From contig NZ_JAALJI010000004.1 in assembly GCF_011064595.1 (NCBI RefSeq), positions 62,001 through 126,000 of the forward strand: a stretch of 64,000 nucleotides of DNA, written 5' to 3'. A program made the translations under genes and the position numbers. Source of the stretch: Paludisphaera soli. GTDB taxonomy: Bacteria; Planctomycetota; Planctomycetia; Isosphaerales; Isosphaeraceae. This document shows, in pieces, positions 51,724-59,916 of this stretch. Numbering within the stretch: position 1 is the stretch's first letter; every line of letters begins with the position of its first letter. Under the pieces are notes generated by a model. It did not search any database. It saw nothing but the letters and a program-made list of their open reading frames with translations, and was not told where the DNA came from.

Positions 51724-54456
51724 ATGCGACACCCCCTCGCGCTTCTCGGCCTCGCGCTGATCGCGGCGACCTGGACCGCCCGCGGATCCTTCGCGCAGGA
51801 GCCGAAGCCGCTCGCGGGCTTCGATTTCCGGTCGCCCGAAGCGTTGCGAGGTTGGGCGGGCCTCCACGACGTCCACAGCCTCGACGCCGTCTCCGAGGGG
51901 ATGGCCGTCCGCATCGACGGCCGCGACCCCTACTTCGGGAGCCCCGCGTTCGACCTCCCCGAGGGCGTCCCTCTGACGGCCAGGGTCCGCATCAAGGTCG
52001 AGAAGCCGGGCGAGCTTCAGGTCTTCTACATCCGCCCCGGCGAGCAGACCAATGAGGAGCGCTCCGTGCGCAAGCCCGTCCGCGCCGGAGGCTGGCGCGA
52101 CGTGATCCTCCACCTGCCGCCGCTCGGGCCGAGGACCGTCATCCGGATCGACCCGCCGGGAAGCTCGGGCGTCTGCCTGATCGAGTCGATCCGCTTCGCG
52201 CCCAGGCTCCTCATCGAGGCCGCCTGGCCGGAGCCGGGGATTCCGAGGCCGGCGGCCGACGCCCCCCGCGTCGAGGCCGGGACGTTCGTGCTCAAGCAGG
52301 ACCCCGCCCGGTTCGGCGGCTTCACCCTGAGCGTCGACGGCCGGGAGGTCGCGACGGGACACGACAGGCCGACGATCGCCTACCGCACCGTCGTCGACGG
52401 CCGACCGGCCGTGAAGTGGGTGGCCGCGCCGACCGATGCGAAGGTCGAGACGACCGTCGATCCGGCGGACGGGACCTTGCGCGTGGGGACGACGTTCCGC
52501 GACGAGCAGGGGGGCGCGTGGCGGTTGGAGCAGGCGTTCCGGCCGCACTCGCCCGGCGTGATCGCGTTCGAGGCCGAATGCGCGGTCGACGCCCCCCGGG
52601 CGATCTTCCACGCCCCGCTGCTGGTGACGCTCCCGGGCCACGGACAGGGCGCCTTCGGCGCGTCGAAGGGGCAGGGGCTCCTGGCGGGGGTCGAATACCT
52701 CGACGACGAGCCGAGCAGCTCGACGGCGGACCTGGGCGAGGCCGACGCCCTCCGCAAGGTCCCCTCGGCCCCGAAGCTCACGTTCCCGCTGATGGCCGTC
52801 CAGGCCCGGGGCCGCTACCTCGGCCTGATCTGGGAGCCTGGTCCGGGGGTCGCGCCGCTGTTCGATTCGCCCGACCGGACGCTCGGCGGCAGCGGCCACC
52901 TGATGGGCCTCATCGCCCCCGGGGCCGAGGCCGGCGACCGCGTCGAGGGGTCGCTGTTCCCCGACGAGCCGACGGCCCTCGCGCCCGGCGTCCCGCTCAA
53001 GGCGTCGGGCCTGCTGATCGCCGGCGAGGGGACGACGATCATCCCGGCCGTGCAGCGCTACGTCGCCTTGAAGGGGCTGCCGCCGATCCCGGCGACGCCC
53101 GGACTGCAAGACTACGTCCGGCTGGCCGCCGCCGGCTGGCTCGACTCGCCCATCCGCGACGGCGGCCGCTATCGCCACGCGGCCGGGGCCGGCGACTTCC
53201 GCGCCCAGCCGGCGGCCGACGCCGCCTGGATGACGAGCTGGCTCGCCGCGCTGACCGACGATCCGAAGCTGGCGGATCGCCTCCGCGCGGCGTCGACCGA
53301 GGCCGAGGCTCAGCTCCGCCCCGACCGCGATCTGCACTCCGCCGTGGGGCACAACCGCTATCCGGTCGCCCCACTCGTGCTCCCCGACGCCGGGACGGCG
53401 GACGACGGCGGCGCGGCGAGCTTCGACCGGGCGGTCGCGGCGGTCGTCGCCTCGTCGCGGATGTTCGAGCCCGACGGCACGCGCCGGTATCGGCCGGCTC
53501 GGGGCCGCCTCGATTACGGACGGACCCACTTCAGCGACGAGGCCAGCGGATACGCCGCCCAGCCGATCGACCAGATGCTCCGGCTGGCCGCCTACTCCGG
53601 CGACCGGGCGGCCGTCGACGAGGGCCTGCGGCTGCTGGCGATCCTCCGCGACCGCTTCCGCGACGGCGTCCCGCGCGGGGCGCAGACCTGGGAGATCGCC
53701 CTGCACACGCCCGACGTCCTCGCCTCGGCCTACCTCGTCCGGGCGTTCGCCCTGGGCTACGAGCTGACCGGCGACCCGTCGTTCCTCGACGCCGCGAAGT
53801 ACTGGGCCTGGACCGGCGTCCCGTTCGTCTACCTCGTGGACCCGACCGACGCGAGCGGGCCGGAGGCCGTCGGACCTTATGCGACGATCCCCGTGCTGGG
53901 CTCGACCAACTGGGTCGCGCCCAACTGGATCGGCCTGCCGGTTCAGTGGTGCGGGCTCGTCTACGCCGACGCGCTCATCGAGCTGGCCCGCTACGACGCC
54001 GAGGGCCCCTGGAGCCGCCTCGCCGACGGCATCGCCGCGTCGGGGATCCTCCAGACCTATCCGCTCGACGACCCCAACCGGGGGCTCCTGCCGGACTCGT
54101 TCAACCTGACCTCGCAGGCGCGCAACCCGGCCGACATCAACCCCGGCACCCTCCAGCCCGGCGCCGTCCGGCTGCTCGCCGGCCCCCTCGCCCGGCCCTA
54201 CCAGTTCCGGGCCCTGCGCGGGGCCGGCCTCTGGATCTGCGCCCCCGGCGCGATCGAGGTCGAGGCCGACGCCCCAGGCGAGGCCGCGTTCACCGTGCAC
54301 CCCTGGAATCCCGGGCCGTCGTTCGTCGTCGTCCACGGCGTCGCCCCCGAAGCCGAGGTGTCGGGCGAGGTCGTCGGCCGTCGCGACCAGGGCCGGACGA
54401 TCCGCCTCGAAGGCGGGGCGAAGCCGGCGCGGATCACGGTCCGGGCCCCGAAGTAA
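51724..54456 (+). CDS. Large secreted protein, possible alpha/alpha-barrel carbohydrate-acting enzyme
   Basis: 910 aa with a signal peptide (MRHPLALLGLALIAATWTAR). The N-terminal half is beta-rich (FDFRSPEALRGW, VEKPGELQVFYIRPGE), resembling a carbohydrate-binding beta-sandwich. The C-terminal half looks like alpha-hairpin repeats (YLVRAFALGYELTGD, WCGLVYADALIELARYD), a layout typical of alpha/alpha-toroid glycoside hydrolases and polysaccharide lyases. I cannot find a catalytic motif, so the enzyme call is an inference. AGGAGA about 8 bases before ATG 51724. It may work on exported polysaccharide. Confidence 0.55.
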   Translation: MRHPLALLGLALIAATWTARGSFAQEPKPLAGFDFRSPEALRGWAGLHDVHSLDAVSEGMAVRIDGRDPYFGSPAFDLPEGVPLTARVRIKVEKPGELQVFYIRPGEQTNEERSVRKPVRAGGWRDVILHLPPLGPRTVIRIDPPGSSGVCLIESIRFAPRLLIEAAWPEPGIPRPAADAPRVEAGTFVLKQDPARFGGFTLSVDGREVATGHDRPTIAYRTVVDGRPAVKWVAAPTDAKVETTVDPADGTLRVGTTFRDEQGGAWRLEQAFRPHSPGVIAFEAECAVDAPRAIFHAPLLVTLPGHGQGAFGASKGQGLLAGVEYLDDEPSSSTADLGEADALRKVPSAPKLTFPLMAVQARGRYLGLIWEPGPGVAPLFDSPDRTLGGSGHLMGLIAPGAEAGDRVEGSLFPDEPTALAPGVPLKASGLLIAGEGTTIIPAVQRYVALKGLPPIPATPGLQDYVRLAAAGWLDSPIRDGGRYRHAAGAGDFRAQPAADAAWMTSWLAALTDDPKLADRLRAASTEAEAQLRPDRDLHSAVGHNRYPVAPLVLPDAGTADDGGAASFDRAVAAVVASSRMFEPDGTRRYRPARGRLDYGRTHFSDEASGYAAQPIDQMLRLAAYSGDRAAVDEGLRLLAILRDRFRDGVPRGAQTWEIALHTPDVLASAYLVRAFALGYELTGDPSFLDAAKYWAWTGVPFVYLVDPTDASGPEAVGPYATIPVLGSTNWVAPNWIGLPVQWCGLVYADALIELARYDAEGPWSRLADGIAASGILQTYPLDDPNRGLLPDSFNLTSQARNPADINPGTLQPGAVRLLAGPLARPYQFRALRGAGLWICAPGAIEVEADAPGEAAFTVHPWNPGPSFVVVHGVAPEAEVSGEVVGRRDQGRTIRLEGGAKPARITVRAPK

Positions 54457-54492
54457 TACGGATGTGGTTTTCCGACGATTCCGTCGGGAACG

Positions 54493-54520
54493 TTGTACGC
54501 GCCGGCTTATGGGGTACGAT
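54493..54520 (+). promoter_or_regulatory. Candidate promoter of the DUF4065/zeta-like pair
   Basis: TTGTAC (54493-54498) and TACGAT (54515-54520), 16 bases apart, lie 48 bases before the start codon at 54568. By eye only. Confidence 0.4.
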
Positions 54521-54567
54521 TGAGGAGGAAGACAAGCGCCCCTTTCTCGATCGACGGAGACGACGTC

Positions 54568-55044
54568 ATGGGCCGGCAGTGCGTCCAGGGAGTGACCAAC
54601 TACATCGTCTGGGATTGCCACGAGGCCGGGTCGTACATCACCCTCGCGAAGCTCCAGAAGCTGCTCTATTTCGCCCAGGCGCGGCACCTGGCGATGCACG
54701 GCGAGCCTTTGTTCGCCGGCCGCTTCGAAGCCTGGTCGCACGGCCCGGTCCTGCGGTCGGTCCACCGGCGGTTCGAACACTTCGGCTGGCGCGCCCTCGA
54801 CGAGTTCATCCCCAAGCCGGAGCTGGACTGCCACACGATGCGGTTCCTCAAGGAGATGCTCGACGACCTGGGCTCCTACGACGCCCGCCAGCTGGAGGCG
54901 ATGATCCGCCGCGACGACGCCTGGATCGCCGCCCGCCAGGGCGCGCCGGAGTGCGTCGACGGTCGCTGGGAGGGCGTGATCTCAGAGGACCTGATGCGCG
55001 ACGTCCACCGTCGCATGTTGAACCTGGAACCCGCGGGGGTCTGA
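54568..55044 (+). CDS. DUF4065/Panacea-domain protein, probable antitoxin
   Basis: 158 aa. Fits the Panacea (DUF4065, SocA/GepA-like) domain: TNYIVWDCHE, YITLAKLQKLLYFAQARHLA and GEPLFAGRFEAWSHGPVLRS are the family's signature helices. This domain is known as an antitoxin that neutralises many unrelated toxins. GGAG is 8 bases before ATG 54568. It is followed after 7 nt by a zeta-toxin-like P-loop kinase on the same strand. The role as antitoxin is an inference from family and gene pair. Confidence 0.8.
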   Translation: MGRQCVQGVTNYIVWDCHEAGSYITLAKLQKLLYFAQARHLAMHGEPLFAGRFEAWSHGPVLRSVHRRFEHFGWRALDEFIPKPELDCHTMRFLKEMLDDLGSYDARQLEAMIRRDDAWIAARQGAPECVDGRWEGVISEDLMRDVHRRMLNLEPAGV

Positions 55045-55051
55045 CGCCGGC

Positions 55052-55759
55052 ATGGGCGGCCCGAACGTCATCGTGCTCGCCGGCCCCAACGGCGCCGGCA
55101 AGTCGACCCTCGCCCCACCGCTCTTGCGCGACGCCCTGGCCGTCCGCCACTTTGTCAACGCCGACGCGATCGCCGCTGGCCTCTCGGCCTTCGCGCCTGA
55201 GACCGTCGCCGTCCAGGCCGGCCGCATCATGCTGGCGAGGCTGAAGGACCTCGCGGCGGCCCGCGCCGATTTCGCGTTCGAGACGACCCTCGCCACGCGA
55301 TCGTTCGCGACCTGGCTTCGGACCTTGATCGCGGCGGGCTACGAGTTCCACCTCGTCTTCCTGTCGCTCCCCTCGGCCGAACTGGCCGTGGCGCGCGTGG
55401 CCGGCCGCGTGAGCCACGGCGGCCACCACGTCCCCGAGGAGGTCGTCCGCCGCCGCCACGCGGCGGGGCTGAGAAACCTCGAGGAGCTGTATCGCCCGCT
55501 GGCCGCGAGCTGGCGCGTCTACGACAACGCGAGGCCGGCCGGCCGCCGGTTCCTGAGGGGCGGGGGCGACGTCGGCCCGGCCTTTCGCGAAGTCTCCCTC
55601 GTCGACGCCGCCGTCGACGAGGCCGCGCGTGGGGCGGCGAGGCTCCACAAGAGCCTCGGCCTGCCGCTGGCCGCCTGGCGGGACGGCCGGGTCGTCCACA
55701 TCCCGGCCGAAACGGTCGACCTGGCGGACGGGGCTCGCGAGGTCGACCCGATGGGCTGA
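55052..55759 (+). CDS. Zeta-toxin-like P-loop kinase
   Basis: 235 aa. Walker A GPNGAGKS at 11-18, preceded by the hydrophobic strand VIVLA. NADAIAAGLSAFAPE and FAFETTLATRSF follow, as in zeta toxins, which phosphorylate UDP-N-acetylglucosamine and so block cell-wall synthesis. The C-terminal 60 residues are not conserved in zeta proteins. Because the usual epsilon antitoxin is absent and a Panacea-like gene lies 7 nt upstream, the pair could be a new toxin-antitoxin combination. Many chromosomal relatives are harmless kinases, so toxicity is not shown. Confidence 0.75.
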   Translation: MGGPNVIVLAGPNGAGKSTLAPPLLRDALAVRHFVNADAIAAGLSAFAPETVAVQAGRIMLARLKDLAAARADFAFETTLATRSFATWLRTLIAAGYEFHLVFLSLPSAELAVARVAGRVSHGGHHVPEEVVRRRHAAGLRNLEELYRPLAASWRVYDNARPAGRRFLRGGGDVGPAFREVSLVDAAVDEAARGAARLHKSLGLPLAAWRDGRVVHIPAETVDLADGAREVDPMG

Positions 55760-55760
55760 G

Positions 55761-57197
55761 TCACTCGGCGACCGCGGCCTTGGGGGCGGGGCGGCGGATC
55801 TCCGGCGTGTCGGGGATCTGCTCGACCAGGCGGTTGGCGCGGCCGTCGGGCTGCTTCTGGAGTTCGAAGGCGTCGTAGAGGTCGCCGAGCGCCGTGCGGG
55901 CTTCGTATCGCAGGACGTCGCCGTCGACGGCGACCACCTGATAGAGCTGCACGTCCTCGCCCGACCGCTTCATCCACTGCTCGGGGTCGAGGACGTACAT
56001 CTTGGGCCCGGAGACCGAGACGACGTAGACCGTGCCGGCGGTGGCGTCGGGATCGTCGCGCGCGGTGCCCCCCTCGGGGACGTTCTCATAGGACTTGAGC
56101 CCGGTCCGGGCGTAGGTGTGGTCGTGGCCCTGGAGCACGAGGTCGACCTTGCGGCGGTCGAAGATCGGCTGCCAGAGGCGGCGCAGCTCGGCGTTGTCGC
56201 GGTTCTTGGCCGGGGAGTAGATGGGGTGGTGGAACGTCAGGATCGTCCACTTCTGCGGGTTCTCGGCCAGGATCCGGTCGAGCCATTCGGCCTGCTCGGG
56301 CTGGCCTTCGTTGGAGTTGAGCGAGACGATGCGGACGCCCTGGTAGTCGAAGAAGTAGGCCGCCTCCTCCAGCCCGGCGGGCCCGTTCTCCGGCAGCGCG
56401 AACTGGGCCCGCCAGTGGGACGTGAGGACCCCCTTGGAGTCGGGGACGACGGTGCCGTCCGGGAGCCTCGGGCGTTCATACTCGTGGTTGCCGGGCGAGG
56501 GGACGCTGGGGACCATGCCGTTGATCCAGGCGCCGGCCCCGAACCACTCGCCCCAGAGGGCGTCGCTCGCGCCGCGGTTGATGAGGTCGCCGGCGTGGAC
56601 CAGGAACGCGGAGTCGGGGGCGTCGCCGTAGGCCTTGCGGATCACCCGCGACCACATCGACTTGACGTCGTTCTGGGCGTCGCCGAAGTAGAGGAAGCGG
56701 AACGGCTCGGGATTGTCGGACGCGGTCGACACCTGGAACCACTCGCTCCAGTCGACGCCGTCGCCCACGCGGTAGGCGTACTTGGTGGAGGGCTCCAGGC
56801 CGCCGAGCAGGACCGAATGATAGCGGGCGGGGCCGAGGTTCGAAACGAGGTCCTGCGAAACGGCCGCGACGGTCGTCGCCTTCTCGGCGAACCGCGGGCC
56901 GTGCTCCGCCTTGGCGACCTGCGCCACGGCCTGGACGACGGCGGCGTCGGTGCGCCAGGTGACGGCGATCGAACGCGCCGGGTCGGCCGCGATCGTGCGG
57001 ATGATGCGGTCCGGGATCGGCGACGGCCGGTGAGCCTCGGCCTCCGGCACGGGGGCGGTCCGCGTCGCGTTCGCCTGGGCCTGCGCCGGGGCGGGAGCGG
57101 CGGCGGCCGGGGCGGGCACGGGCGCCTGGGCTCGGGCGGCGGTCAGGGCGATCCCGAACGTGATCAGGGTCGGGAACGTCGAGCGGCTCGCGGTCAT
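55761..57197 (-). CDS. Purple acid phosphatase-like metallophosphoesterase, exported
   Basis: 478 aa with a signal peptide, then an Ala/Pro-rich linker. An N-terminal fibronectin-like domain (SIAVTWRTDA, STKYAYRVGDG) precedes a metallophosphatase with FLYFGDAQND, VHAGDLINRG, SPGNHEY, ILTFHHPIYS and LVLQGHDHTYAR, the five metal-binding blocks. Purple acid phosphatases hydrolyse phosphate esters outside the cytoplasm. AGGAGG is 6 bases before ATG 57197. It is transcribed divergently from the kinase. Family well supported; substrate unknown. Confidence 0.88.
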   Translation of the reverse strand: MTASRSTFPTLITFGIALTAARAQAPVPAPAAAAPAPAQAQANATRTAPVPEAEAHRPSPIPDRIIRTIAADPARSIAVTWRTDAAVVQAVAQVAKAEHGPRFAEKATTVAAVSQDLVSNLGPARYHSVLLGGLEPSTKYAYRVGDGVDWSEWFQVSTASDNPEPFRFLYFGDAQNDVKSMWSRVIRKAYGDAPDSAFLVHAGDLINRGASDALWGEWFGAGAWINGMVPSVPSPGNHEYERPRLPDGTVVPDSKGVLTSHWRAQFALPENGPAGLEEAAYFFDYQGVRIVSLNSNEGQPEQAEWLDRILAENPQKWTILTFHHPIYSPAKNRDNAELRRLWQPIFDRRKVDLVLQGHDHTYARTGLKSYENVPEGGTARDDPDATAGTVYVVSVSGPKMYVLDPEQWMKRSGEDVQLYQVVAVDGDVLRYEARTALGDLYDAFELQKQPDGRANRLVEQIPDTPEIRRPAPKAAVAE

Positions 57198-57456
57198 CGC
57201 GATCCTCCTGCGTCGGTGCGAAGGGGGGCGGCCGGGGACTTCCCGACGCACGGAACCGACTCTAGCCGGTCGGCCGCGTGGTTTCCAGTCGTCGCGAGGG
57301 CTCGCCTGATTGACGGGCGGGGTGCGGGGGGGCATCATGGCGATGTGGCCCGCGGCCCGACCCCCGACGGCGACGCCGCGCCTGCTCGGGCGCCGCTGCG
57401 ATCGCCGGGATGGGCGTCGCGGCCCGGATGGAACCCTTCGACGGCGGGGGTGCTCG

Positions 57457-59916
57457 GTGATCGGCCCAGGCTCGACGCTCAACGATCGATTCCTCCTCAA
57501 CACCGAGCTGGGCCGCGGCGGCATGGGCGCGGTCTACGCGGCGACCGACCTGGTCCTCCAGCGCGACGTGGCCATCAAGGTCCTGAAGGACCAGCAGGCC
57601 GGCGAGGAGGTCTCCAAGCGGCTCCGCCTGGAGGCCCAGATCGCCGCCCGACTCCTGCACGACAACGTCGTGCGGATCTACGACTTCGGCCAGGCCGGCG
57701 GGACGAGCTTCCTCGTCATGGAGAAGGTCGACGGCACCAGCTACGGCCGCCGCTGGCGCGGGATCTCCCTGGGCGAGCGGCTGAAGATCCTCGCCGGGGT
57801 GGCCGAGGCGCTCGACTACGCCCACCATCAGGGGGTCATCCACCGCGACGTCAAGCCGGGTAACGTGCTCCTGACCTCGGCCGACGTCCCCAAGCTCTCC
57901 GACTTCGGCCTCTCGCTGCTGGCCGAGCACGACGAGGCCGCCGGGATCGTCCGCGGCACGCCGCACTACATGAGCCCCGAGCAGGCCAAGGGGCAGAAGC
58001 TCACCTACCGGACCGACCTCTACTCGCTGGGCGTCATGCTGTACGAGTCGGTCTCCGGCGCGGTGCCGTTCGCGGGACCGCCGGTCACCGTCATGGCGCA
58101 GCACGCGAACACCGCGCCCCCGCCGTTGAACGCCCGCGCGGCCGGCGCGTCGCCCGAGCTCGAGAAGCTCATCTTCGCCCTGCTGGCGAAGAAGCCCGAG
58201 GACCGCCCCCCCGGCGGCTCGGCCGTGGCGAAGGTGCTCCGCGCCGAGGCGGGCAAGCTCCTGGGGGAGGCCGAGGCGGGCGTCGGCGAGGCGCCCCCGC
58301 CCGAGGAGGAGCCCGTCGAGCCGATGATGGACCTGGGCGCGCTCGCCGAGCTGGGCGAGGGGCGGGCCGTGACCCACGGCTCGGCGACCGCCGGGGGCCG
58401 GCCCGCGCGACGCCCCTCGACGGCCCCCGCCCGCATCACGGCCGCCGAGGCGGCCGACCTCGCCGCGTCGCCCCTCGTCCGCAAGATGCTCCGCACGATC
58501 CTGGCCGAGCCGATCTCGCTCAACCCCGACGAACGCTACCTCTCGGGCTACTACCTCGCCTACCTGCTGGTCGGCTCCCGGCGCAGGCCGTTCTACGCCC
58601 GCCGGCCGCTCGAACGCCTGAACGCGGACCGCGCGCGGCTGATCCTGGCCCTGACCTACGCCCTGACCGCGCACGATTCCGAGGCCGCCGTGCAGGAGGC
58701 CGCCCAGCTCCTCGACCAGCGCATCGAGGTCCGCCCGGCTCTCAACCCCGTAGTCCTCGCCAAGTTCCTGAGCTGGCGCGACAGCCCCAACCGTCGCCGC
58801 ATGCTCCGACAGGTCCGCAAGGCCCTGCAGGACGCCAGCGCCTACGCCCGCGAGCACATGACCGACCCGAAGGGTGTGCTCAACGTCGGACTGATCCCCC
58901 GCTCGCTCGAGGACCTCCGCAAGATCGCTCCGGAACGCGAGGTCGGCGACGAGCTGGTCGAGCGCTGGAACCGCCTGGCCGAGGCCTGGCGCGAGCACGC
59001 CGACCTCCGCGAGACCGTCCTCCGCTACGCCGGCGGCGCCGCCTACCGCGACCCTTCGGGTGCCGCCTTGTGGGCCGAGGTGGTCTACCCGCTCGTCGAG
59101 ATGGCCCGCTGGCAGCGGGCGCGGCGCGGCCGCCTGAGCGACGCCTGGCACTTCCTGGCGAGCCGCGTGCTCCACCTGCCCGACCCCGGCGAGAAGCTGC
59201 ACCGGACCCTGACGCGGCACCTCGCCCCGAGGGTCGTCGAGCAGCTCGACCGCTCGGCCGTGCAGCTCGACCGCGTGCTCGCGCGGGTCGAGCCCGACGA
59301 GGACGAACCGGCCGACGACCAGGACGCCCGCGCCGCCAGGCTCGGCCAGGGGTCCGAGGCCTCGCGGATCGAGGCGATCGCCGCCGAGGCCGACGCCGAG
59401 GTCGACGATTCGGACCAGGTCCTGCTCGTCGACGTCGACCCGATCCGGTTCCTCCAGGGGGAGCTTCACGAACTCTGGAAGGAGGCCGCCGGCGCGATGC
59501 AGAAGGCCGCCGCCGGGCCCGGCGCCCGGCCGGTGGGGCACCGGCACACGCCGCTGGGCCCGTATCGCCTGACCGTCGTCCCGTCGATGCGCGGCGCGTC
59601 GGCCGGGCAGGTCGTCGTGCAGGGCATGCCCAGCAAGCAGCTCGAACTGCTCACCCCGTCGCTCCGGACCGCCGGCTCGCGAAGCCGGCCGATCGTCGCC
59701 GCCTGGCCCTACGCGGACAACAGCCTGCTGCTGGCCTACCAAGACTTCAAGAGCGTCCAGCGCTACATCCTCTGGGACGCCCCCCGGGGCCGACAGTCGA
59801 GCTACACCGACCCGGCCGAGGTCTACCGCGAACTCGCCGCGCTCGGCATGGAGGTCCCCTCGGCGATGGAGGGCGCCCTCAGCAAGAGCTTCCGCCCCCA
59901 GGGCGGCCGGCGCTGA
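57457..59916 (+). CDS. Soluble Ser/Thr protein kinase with a long C-terminal region
   Basis: 819 aa. N-terminal Hanks-type kinase: LGRGGMGAVYAA (P-loop), VAIKVLK with Lys41, HRDVKPGN (129-136) and SDFGLSLL (148-155), all catalytic residues present. There is no transmembrane segment, unlike PknB types. Residues about 340-819 are unrecognised, with helical segments and an acidic stretch (ARVEPDEDEPADDQDA). The start is GTG 57457 with GGGGG about five bases upstream; ATG 57310 would add 49 residues of arginine-rich, poorly coding sequence. Convergent with the VWA gene. Targets unknown. Confidence 0.8.
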   Translation: MIGPGSTLNDRFLLNTELGRGGMGAVYAATDLVLQRDVAIKVLKDQQAGEEVSKRLRLEAQIAARLLHDNVVRIYDFGQAGGTSFLVMEKVDGTSYGRRWRGISLGERLKILAGVAEALDYAHHQGVIHRDVKPGNVLLTSADVPKLSDFGLSLLAEHDEAAGIVRGTPHYMSPEQAKGQKLTYRTDLYSLGVMLYESVSGAVPFAGPPVTVMAQHANTAPPPLNARAAGASPELEKLIFALLAKKPEDRPPGGSAVAKVLRAEAGKLLGEAEAGVGEAPPPEEEPVEPMMDLGALAELGEGRAVTHGSATAGGRPARRPSTAPARITAAEAADLAASPLVRKMLRTILAEPISLNPDERYLSGYYLAYLLVGSRRRPFYARRPLERLNADRARLILALTYALTAHDSEAAVQEAAQLLDQRIEVRPALNPVVLAKFLSWRDSPNRRRMLRQVRKALQDASAYAREHMTDPKGVLNVGLIPRSLEDLRKIAPEREVGDELVERWNRLAEAWREHADLRETVLRYAGGAAYRDPSGAALWAEVVYPLVEMARWQRARRGRLSDAWHFLASRVLHLPDPGEKLHRTLTRHLAPRVVEQLDRSAVQLDRVLARVEPDEDEPADDQDARAARLGQGSEASRIEAIAAEADAEVDDSDQVLLVDVDPIRFLQGELHELWKEAAGAMQKAAAGPGARPVGHRHTPLGPYRLTVVPSMRGASAGQVVVQGMPSKQLELLTPSLRTAGSRSRPIVAAWPYADNSLLLAYQDFKSVQRYILWDAPRGRQSSYTDPAEVYRELAALGMEVPSAMEGALSKSFRPQGGRR

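Follow-up and report, generated by a model that had tools for sequence, protein, structure and literature searches.

Does the gene for a Panacea (DUF4065, SocA_Panacea) protein that directly precedes a zeta-like kinase gene in Paludisphaera soli encode the antitoxin of that kinase? An earlier note on this DNA had proposed the two as a possible new toxin-antitoxin combination. The window, by which we mean the whole 64,000-nucleotide stretch of DNA that was analysed, belongs to a draft genome of 7.97 Mb in 197 contigs, in which there is one Panacea match and, at E 0.001, one kinase match. The Panacea gene (positions 54568 to 55044, plus strand, 158 aa; Pfam 4.6e-15) is followed on the same strand, after 7 nt, by an ORF of 235 aa (55052 to 55759). 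The Panacea ORF scores 56.9 bits against Pfam SocA_Panacea (PF13274; cut-off 25.7), and the kinase ORF matches AAA_33 at 8e-11 and Zeta_toxin (PF06414) at 1.6e-10, with 41.2 bits for a cut-off of 22.3. The family signatures and the spacing described in the earlier note were thus both confirmed. The promoter-like pair that it placed just upstream was not recovered: a consensus scan of 54300 to 55900 found no sigma-70-like pair (shuffled sequences gave a mean of 0.1), and we discarded such a promoter as the driver of the two genes. Upstream lies a gene for a protein of 910 aa (51724 to 54456, plus strand) with no match in Pfam or NCBIfam; a homologue of this protein, seen by eye in translations, also precedes a solitary Panacea gene in another genome of the genus (G032). 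On the other side, a purple-acid-phosphatase/metallophosphoesterase gene, assigned by a domain match, is convergent (55761 to 57524, minus strand).

The kinase ORF ends in ~65 residues that belong to a second protein family, a feature overlooked in the earlier note. Against other genomes the match of the ORF is often split: residues 1 to roughly 172 align in one frame and those from about 173 to 232 in a different frame immediately downstream; the kinase begins at residue 1 of the fused ORF and the partner at about residue 172. In two other genomes of the genus (G029 and G031) the kinase ORF is ~197 aa long and shares an ATGA overlap with a separate ORF of 75-77 aa, and in a third (G028) kinase and partner are likewise two genes. 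In the window 89 nt of G029 and G031 (92 in G028) are missing, with the junction between 55563 and 55564; a loss of this length (89 is 2 modulo 3) has brought the kinase and partner frames together. The kinase part spans 55052 to 55563 and the small-partner part 55564 to 55756 (both plus strand), the latter corresponding to what is elsewhere mostly a separate downstream ORF of ~62 aa. The deletion took a conserved part of the kinase tail, and the acidic tail is also lost in the window copy. DNA resembling the end of the phosphatase gene also lies downstream of the kinase and partner in G029 and G031. Further fusions were found in G017/G019 and at loci L083, L117, L118 and L138, the one at L138 resting on a weak partner match (E 0.019). 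Judging from record names rather than a tree, we infer that the fusions arose independently in about five other lineages. Natural fusions of this kind suggest that kinase and partner work together.

How constant is the small partner among relatives of the kinase? One genome per species, about 85,000 species genomes, was scanned with the kinase alignment alone as query. The scan yielded at least 458 relatives; the best 80 of 458, no two of them near-identical, were used, so that the sample consists of closer relatives. These come from Planctomycetota, Nitrospirae, Deltaproteobacteria, Burkholderiales, Acidobacteria, Bacteroidetes, cyanobacteria, Dehalococcoidia and other lineages, and the close-relative kinases are ~195 aa long and followed by a small ORF. 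The window's bacterial family supplied 12 sequences, small ORFs or fused C-termini, for a first partner profile. At 68 of the 80 loci (four of them fusions) this profile located the partner immediately behind the kinase on its strand; at E 0.05 it matched nowhere else in the 80 loci. If the start codon closest to the stop of the kinase is used, kinase and partner genes overlap by 4 nt in 27 cases and by 8 nt in 11. Of the 64 separable small ORFs, 62 went into a second profile (the long ORFs of L098 and L103 were excluded), which recognised the partner at the remaining 12 loci with E values of 0.025 to 1e-13. Taking both profiles, the small partner lies downstream or is fused at 80/80 loci of this sample. 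An automatic position rule counts 79/80, because the kinase match of L132 is split between frames; there 12 nt lie between the final kinase match and the partner start. The window, with its partner fused to the kinase, belongs to the same module.

Within the window's own bacterial family, either profile finds the partner at 24 of 27 distinct kinase loci (not counting L054, where just the partner part matched, or L056 and L057, which are repeats), a count that is not independent, since 12 family rows went into the first profile. Neither profile matches at L050, L053 and L058, which hold more distant or partial family kinases. Positions 1465-2055 of both L050 and L058 encode a distant type of zeta-like kinase from the same family, ~31-34% identical. 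Among the phylum loci L139-L168 the partner is present at 29 of 30 (L167 is without it), a set that overlaps with four scan contigs (L060, L062, L069, L075) and includes the window (L142) and one family locus (L141). A zeta gene on an E. coli plasmid is arranged differently: a small gene precedes it. We therefore rejected the idea that the partner is universal to zeta-like kinases, given this arrangement and the three distant family matches without it.

The partner has a median length of 62 aa and the consensus MkaksekdIrelfekIDaAlkrAvrrAiErHkqaGnPlVVwRDGKVVeikPeei, with a conserved core HK..G.P.VVWRDGKVV. We found no existing name for it: no member scanned reached a cut-off in Pfam (four members) or NCBIfam (five members), and the two members compared with PHROGs gave weak matches, the best at E 0.048. 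The second profile also matches copies carried by plasmids of Synechocystis (pSYSG; 4e-13), Parabacteroides (5e-10) and Nostoc (4e-18), each annotated as a 'hypothetical protein' beside a 'zeta toxin family protein'. The neighbours of the pSYSG pair are PIN-like, DUF4433/macro-domain and restriction genes. At this locus (L174), in a defence island, a nucleotidyltransferase gene flanks the pair on one side and a DUF4433/macro-domain pair, presumably DarTG-like, on the other.

The fused ORF of the window could be the remnant of a decaying module, or its deletion an error of assembly, and we regard this as a real possibility though not the leading one. The loss of 89 nt that included a conserved kinase tail would fit it, as would the loss of the acidic tail and the state of the assembly, a draft in many contigs. 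Selection on the window lineage gave a mixed picture. Three-point branch estimates derived from pairwise values put dN/dS at ~0.18 in Panacea and 0.27 in the kinase part; the small part (65 codons) stood at 1.06, near 1 as decay would have it. However, the pairwise dN/dS of the kinase part is 0.17-0.21, and relative-rate tests showed no significant excess on the window lineage (p 0.34-0.68 for the kinase and small parts, p 0.15-0.63 for Panacea). A comparison in Panacea that does not involve the window, G029 against G031, gave p 0.035. A strong claim of decay was given up, as the relative-rate tests do not back the dN/dS signal; the fused partner may be decaying.

The sequence and predicted structure of the fused ORF also speak against a remnant. 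The kinase motifs are intact in alignment columns conserved among relatives: the P-loop GPNGAGKS (55082-55105), NAD (55157-55165), FETTL (55277-55291) and RVxxRVxxGGHxVPE (55394-55438). AF2 predicted the fused ORF with confidence (mean pLDDT 86.8, pTM 0.76) as a kinase core with a long helix at residues 176-202 and a hairpin at 206-217 behind it, the helix and hairpin blocks having pLDDT of 91-93. The longer natural fusion L083 is likewise predicted to end in a helix and then a hairpin, and the similar fusions found elsewhere argue in the same direction.

What kind of kinase is this? The predicted fold is of the zeta type. The best Foldseek match was the zeta chain 1gvn_B (E 1.2e-7), followed by 3q8x and PezT 2p5t, and all of the top six matches were zeta or PezT chains. 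At the sequence level the G029 kinase scores 45.7 bits against Zeta_toxin; the window kinase matched no zeta or PezT among solved structures by sequence and reached only general P-loop proteins. We also considered whether the kinase and its small partner could form a metabolic or repair enzyme plus regulatory subunit rather than a toxin and antitoxin; we think this unlikely. Polynucleotide kinase is indeed among the best fold matches (VIA-align Z 16.7, rmsd 3.0 over 159 residues, against Z 15.6, rmsd 2.5 over 170 residues for zeta), and we treated the two scores for these predicted models as close. The GTxR motif of UNAG binding, searched as a literal string, is absent from 16/16 kinase members, and some copies stand beside housekeeping genes such as hemW. 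The distribution of the kinase, on the other hand, is patchy for such an enzyme, with matches in 26 of 45 family genomes and in 101 of 392 phylum genomes (weak P-loop-only matches included, eight candidates being scored per genome). Frameshifted or partial copies occur (L046, L047, L048, L052, G283), and others occupy plasmids and defence islands. A PADLOC defence assignment for the locus was rejected, the matches being weak and to the P-loop only, and so was a phage origin of the kinase, which just two phage records match.

The Panacea gene has a history of its own. We start it at the ATG at 54568 (158 aa), where the earlier note had used a TTG at 54493 (183 aa); homologues from four genomes of the genus, 73-85% identical, have an ATG at the equivalent place. 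Its score against NF047745, the SocA antitoxin proper, is 71.1 bits, below the equivalog cut-off of 190 bits, and a search by sequence for a relative of solved structure found none at E 0.1. Residues 9-150 match PHROG 1281 at 1.4e-30, better than Pfam. This match, together with 91 phage records that hold Panacea relatives, suggests from sequence comparison that Panacea may have been exchanged with phages; no kinase was found in the 2.5-kb flanks of Panacea relatives on 7 viral contigs.

In the 45 family genomes we obtained 28 Panacea match rows (20 genomes), and neighbouring Panacea-kinase pairs in three genomes, with gaps of 7 nt in the window (G000), 14 nt in G029 and 10 nt in G031. These three form one syntenic locus and were counted once. 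In the 392 phylum genomes, with 57 Panacea rows in 46 genomes, Panacea directly precedes a kinase at two loci (G000 and G283), although kinases may have been missed since eight candidates were scored per genome. The second locus, in another family, is a row of three genes: one for a different Panacea of 208 aa, then one for a kinase of 193 aa, then one for a small partner of 63 aa. Behind this trio (L173/L145, G283:C47) lie a partial kinase, an identical second small partner and a Panacea fragment, an arrangement that looks like a tandem duplication, and upstream is a gene with coiled-coil-like stretches. In our judgement this recurrence of Panacea with the kinase goes beyond what random scatter would bring, though such genes cluster in islands. 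No Panacea was found near the kinase at any of the 80 scan loci (best E 0.34; flanks of at most 3 kb on each side, often less), and the broad Panacea profile used recovers 28/28 Panacea loci as a check on its sensitivity.

Either gene also occurs without the other adjoining it within the genus. In G032 the upstream gene and Panacea lack an adjacent kinase, which is on another contig; in G030 Panacea is present and no kinase match was found; in G028 kinase and partner occur without Panacea. The solitary Panacea copies of G030 and G032 are intact and 73% identical to that of the window. In G030 (L016:1420-2578), 22 nt separate a Panacea gene of the same subfamily as the window's from a following gene for a HAD-like hydrolase (motif seen by eye), possibly a further Panacea partner. 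The combination proposed in the earlier note therefore stood in part: the gene order is kept in three species, but at one syntenic locus and at none of the scan loci. That Panacea binds and neutralises the kinase as its antitoxin, the small C-terminal part being incidental, is quite improbable to us: the short gaps in three species, the independent locus in G283 and the record of the domain as a promiscuous antitoxin (PMC8832971, openly available passages) favour it, whereas the absence of Panacea near the kinase at the scan loci (best 80 of 458), the presence of the small partner at every one of them, the separate occurrence of the two genes and the intact solitary copies of Panacea oppose it.

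The reading that we favour, and hold to be rather probable, is that the locus carries a module of zeta-like kinase and small partner, probably toxin-antitoxin-like, which is fused in cis here and has Panacea as an optional neighbour. It draws on the overlapping genes, the constant partner in closer relatives, the repeated fusion, the plasmid and defence-island sites and the zeta fold. The functional unit would be a P-loop kinase of zeta-toxin fold and a ~62-residue helix-hairpin protein, in the order kinase then inhibitor, the kinase probably acting on a small nucleotide-type metabolite. With the partner gene overlapping or abutting the kinase 3' end, both proteins would be made together, and the small protein would most likely bind the kinase and keep it quiet, as an antitoxin does. 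We infer toxicity of the kinase and its inhibition by the partner from these features. In the window the 89-nt deletion would have removed the kinase tail, the kinase stop codon and the partner start, so that the partner may now act in cis as the C-terminal domain of the fused ORF. Panacea is probably co-transcribed with the kinase, as a separable neighbour rather than its constant antitoxin. A bolder version, in which a widespread unnamed toxin-antitoxin family has repeatedly fused its partner and acquired Panacea as a layer at least twice, here in replacement of a decaying fused partner, strikes us as a long shot. Genes for 'zeta toxin family' proteins are common, and for many of them no antitoxin is recognised; should the small downstream protein prove to be one, many orphan-looking kinases would become a testable two-gene family. 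The locus is also a caution that a Panacea neighbour need not be the antitoxin and that the real partner may hide inside the next ORF.

The titles, abstracts and passages of the open literature that were covered gave no description of the downstream partner. No paper on COG4185 was found in the open literature, and the main text of Makarova 2009 does not contain 'zeta'. The pairings given for zeta in the openly available text of TASmania are with ParD-like, HTH_3 and phage-integrase-like neighbours. The available passages on the Synechocystis pSYSG island, which holds a kinase/small-partner pair, list ssl8003 and sll8004 as toxin-antitoxin-related genes that missed that paper's criteria (PMC4963859); by order and strand these two match the pair. 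The accessible part of the Panacea survey describes the same domain with a short same-strand gap to the next gene (Panacea/PanA), whereas the neighbour in the window has a partner of its own (PMC8832971). Loci in that survey had gaps of at most 100 nt and occurred in two or more species, which the three-species pair would pass, but as one syntenic locus; various ATPases were filtered out as spurious, and 'zeta' and 'kinase' are absent from the main text, datasets aside (PMC8832971).

AvrRxo1-ORF1:ORF2 (4z8q and other structures) resembles the module in combining a zeta-type kinase fold with a dedicated partner. Its kinase protein is much larger, 329-332 residues in structures, and no sequence match between it and the window kinase was found. 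Going by the names, we take the dedicated partner to be the product of the second gene. The mycobacterial zeta-like kinases (Rv0367c-Rv0366c, MHSD3) are closer in size, similarly ~195 aa, and are toxic on expression according to the available passages (PMC6362051, PMC5728571). GTxR, named there as the UNAG-binding motif, is absent from Rv0366c as it is here (PMC6362051). The mycobacterial antitoxin, however, is upstream, 119-129 aa long and ParD-like (PF11903) (PMC6362051, PMC5728571), whereas the gene upstream of the kinase in the window is Panacea. With epsilon/zeta and PezAT the window shares the zeta-fold P-loop kinase, above the Zeta_toxin cut-off and with these systems as its top Foldseek matches; it differs in having a ~62-aa partner of predicted helix plus hairpin that is downstream or C-terminal, and in lacking a literal GTxR. 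The earlier note was right that the usual antitoxin is absent, Pfam scans finding neither epsilon nor PezA beside the window kinase, but the kinase does not lack a partner, its neighbours being Panacea and the small-partner part. EzeT likewise has a zeta-type kinase and partner in one chain; its antitoxin domain is N-terminal, whereas the partner in the window is C-terminal, and its openly available description shows that restraint of a zeta kinase in cis is feasible (PMC4826407).
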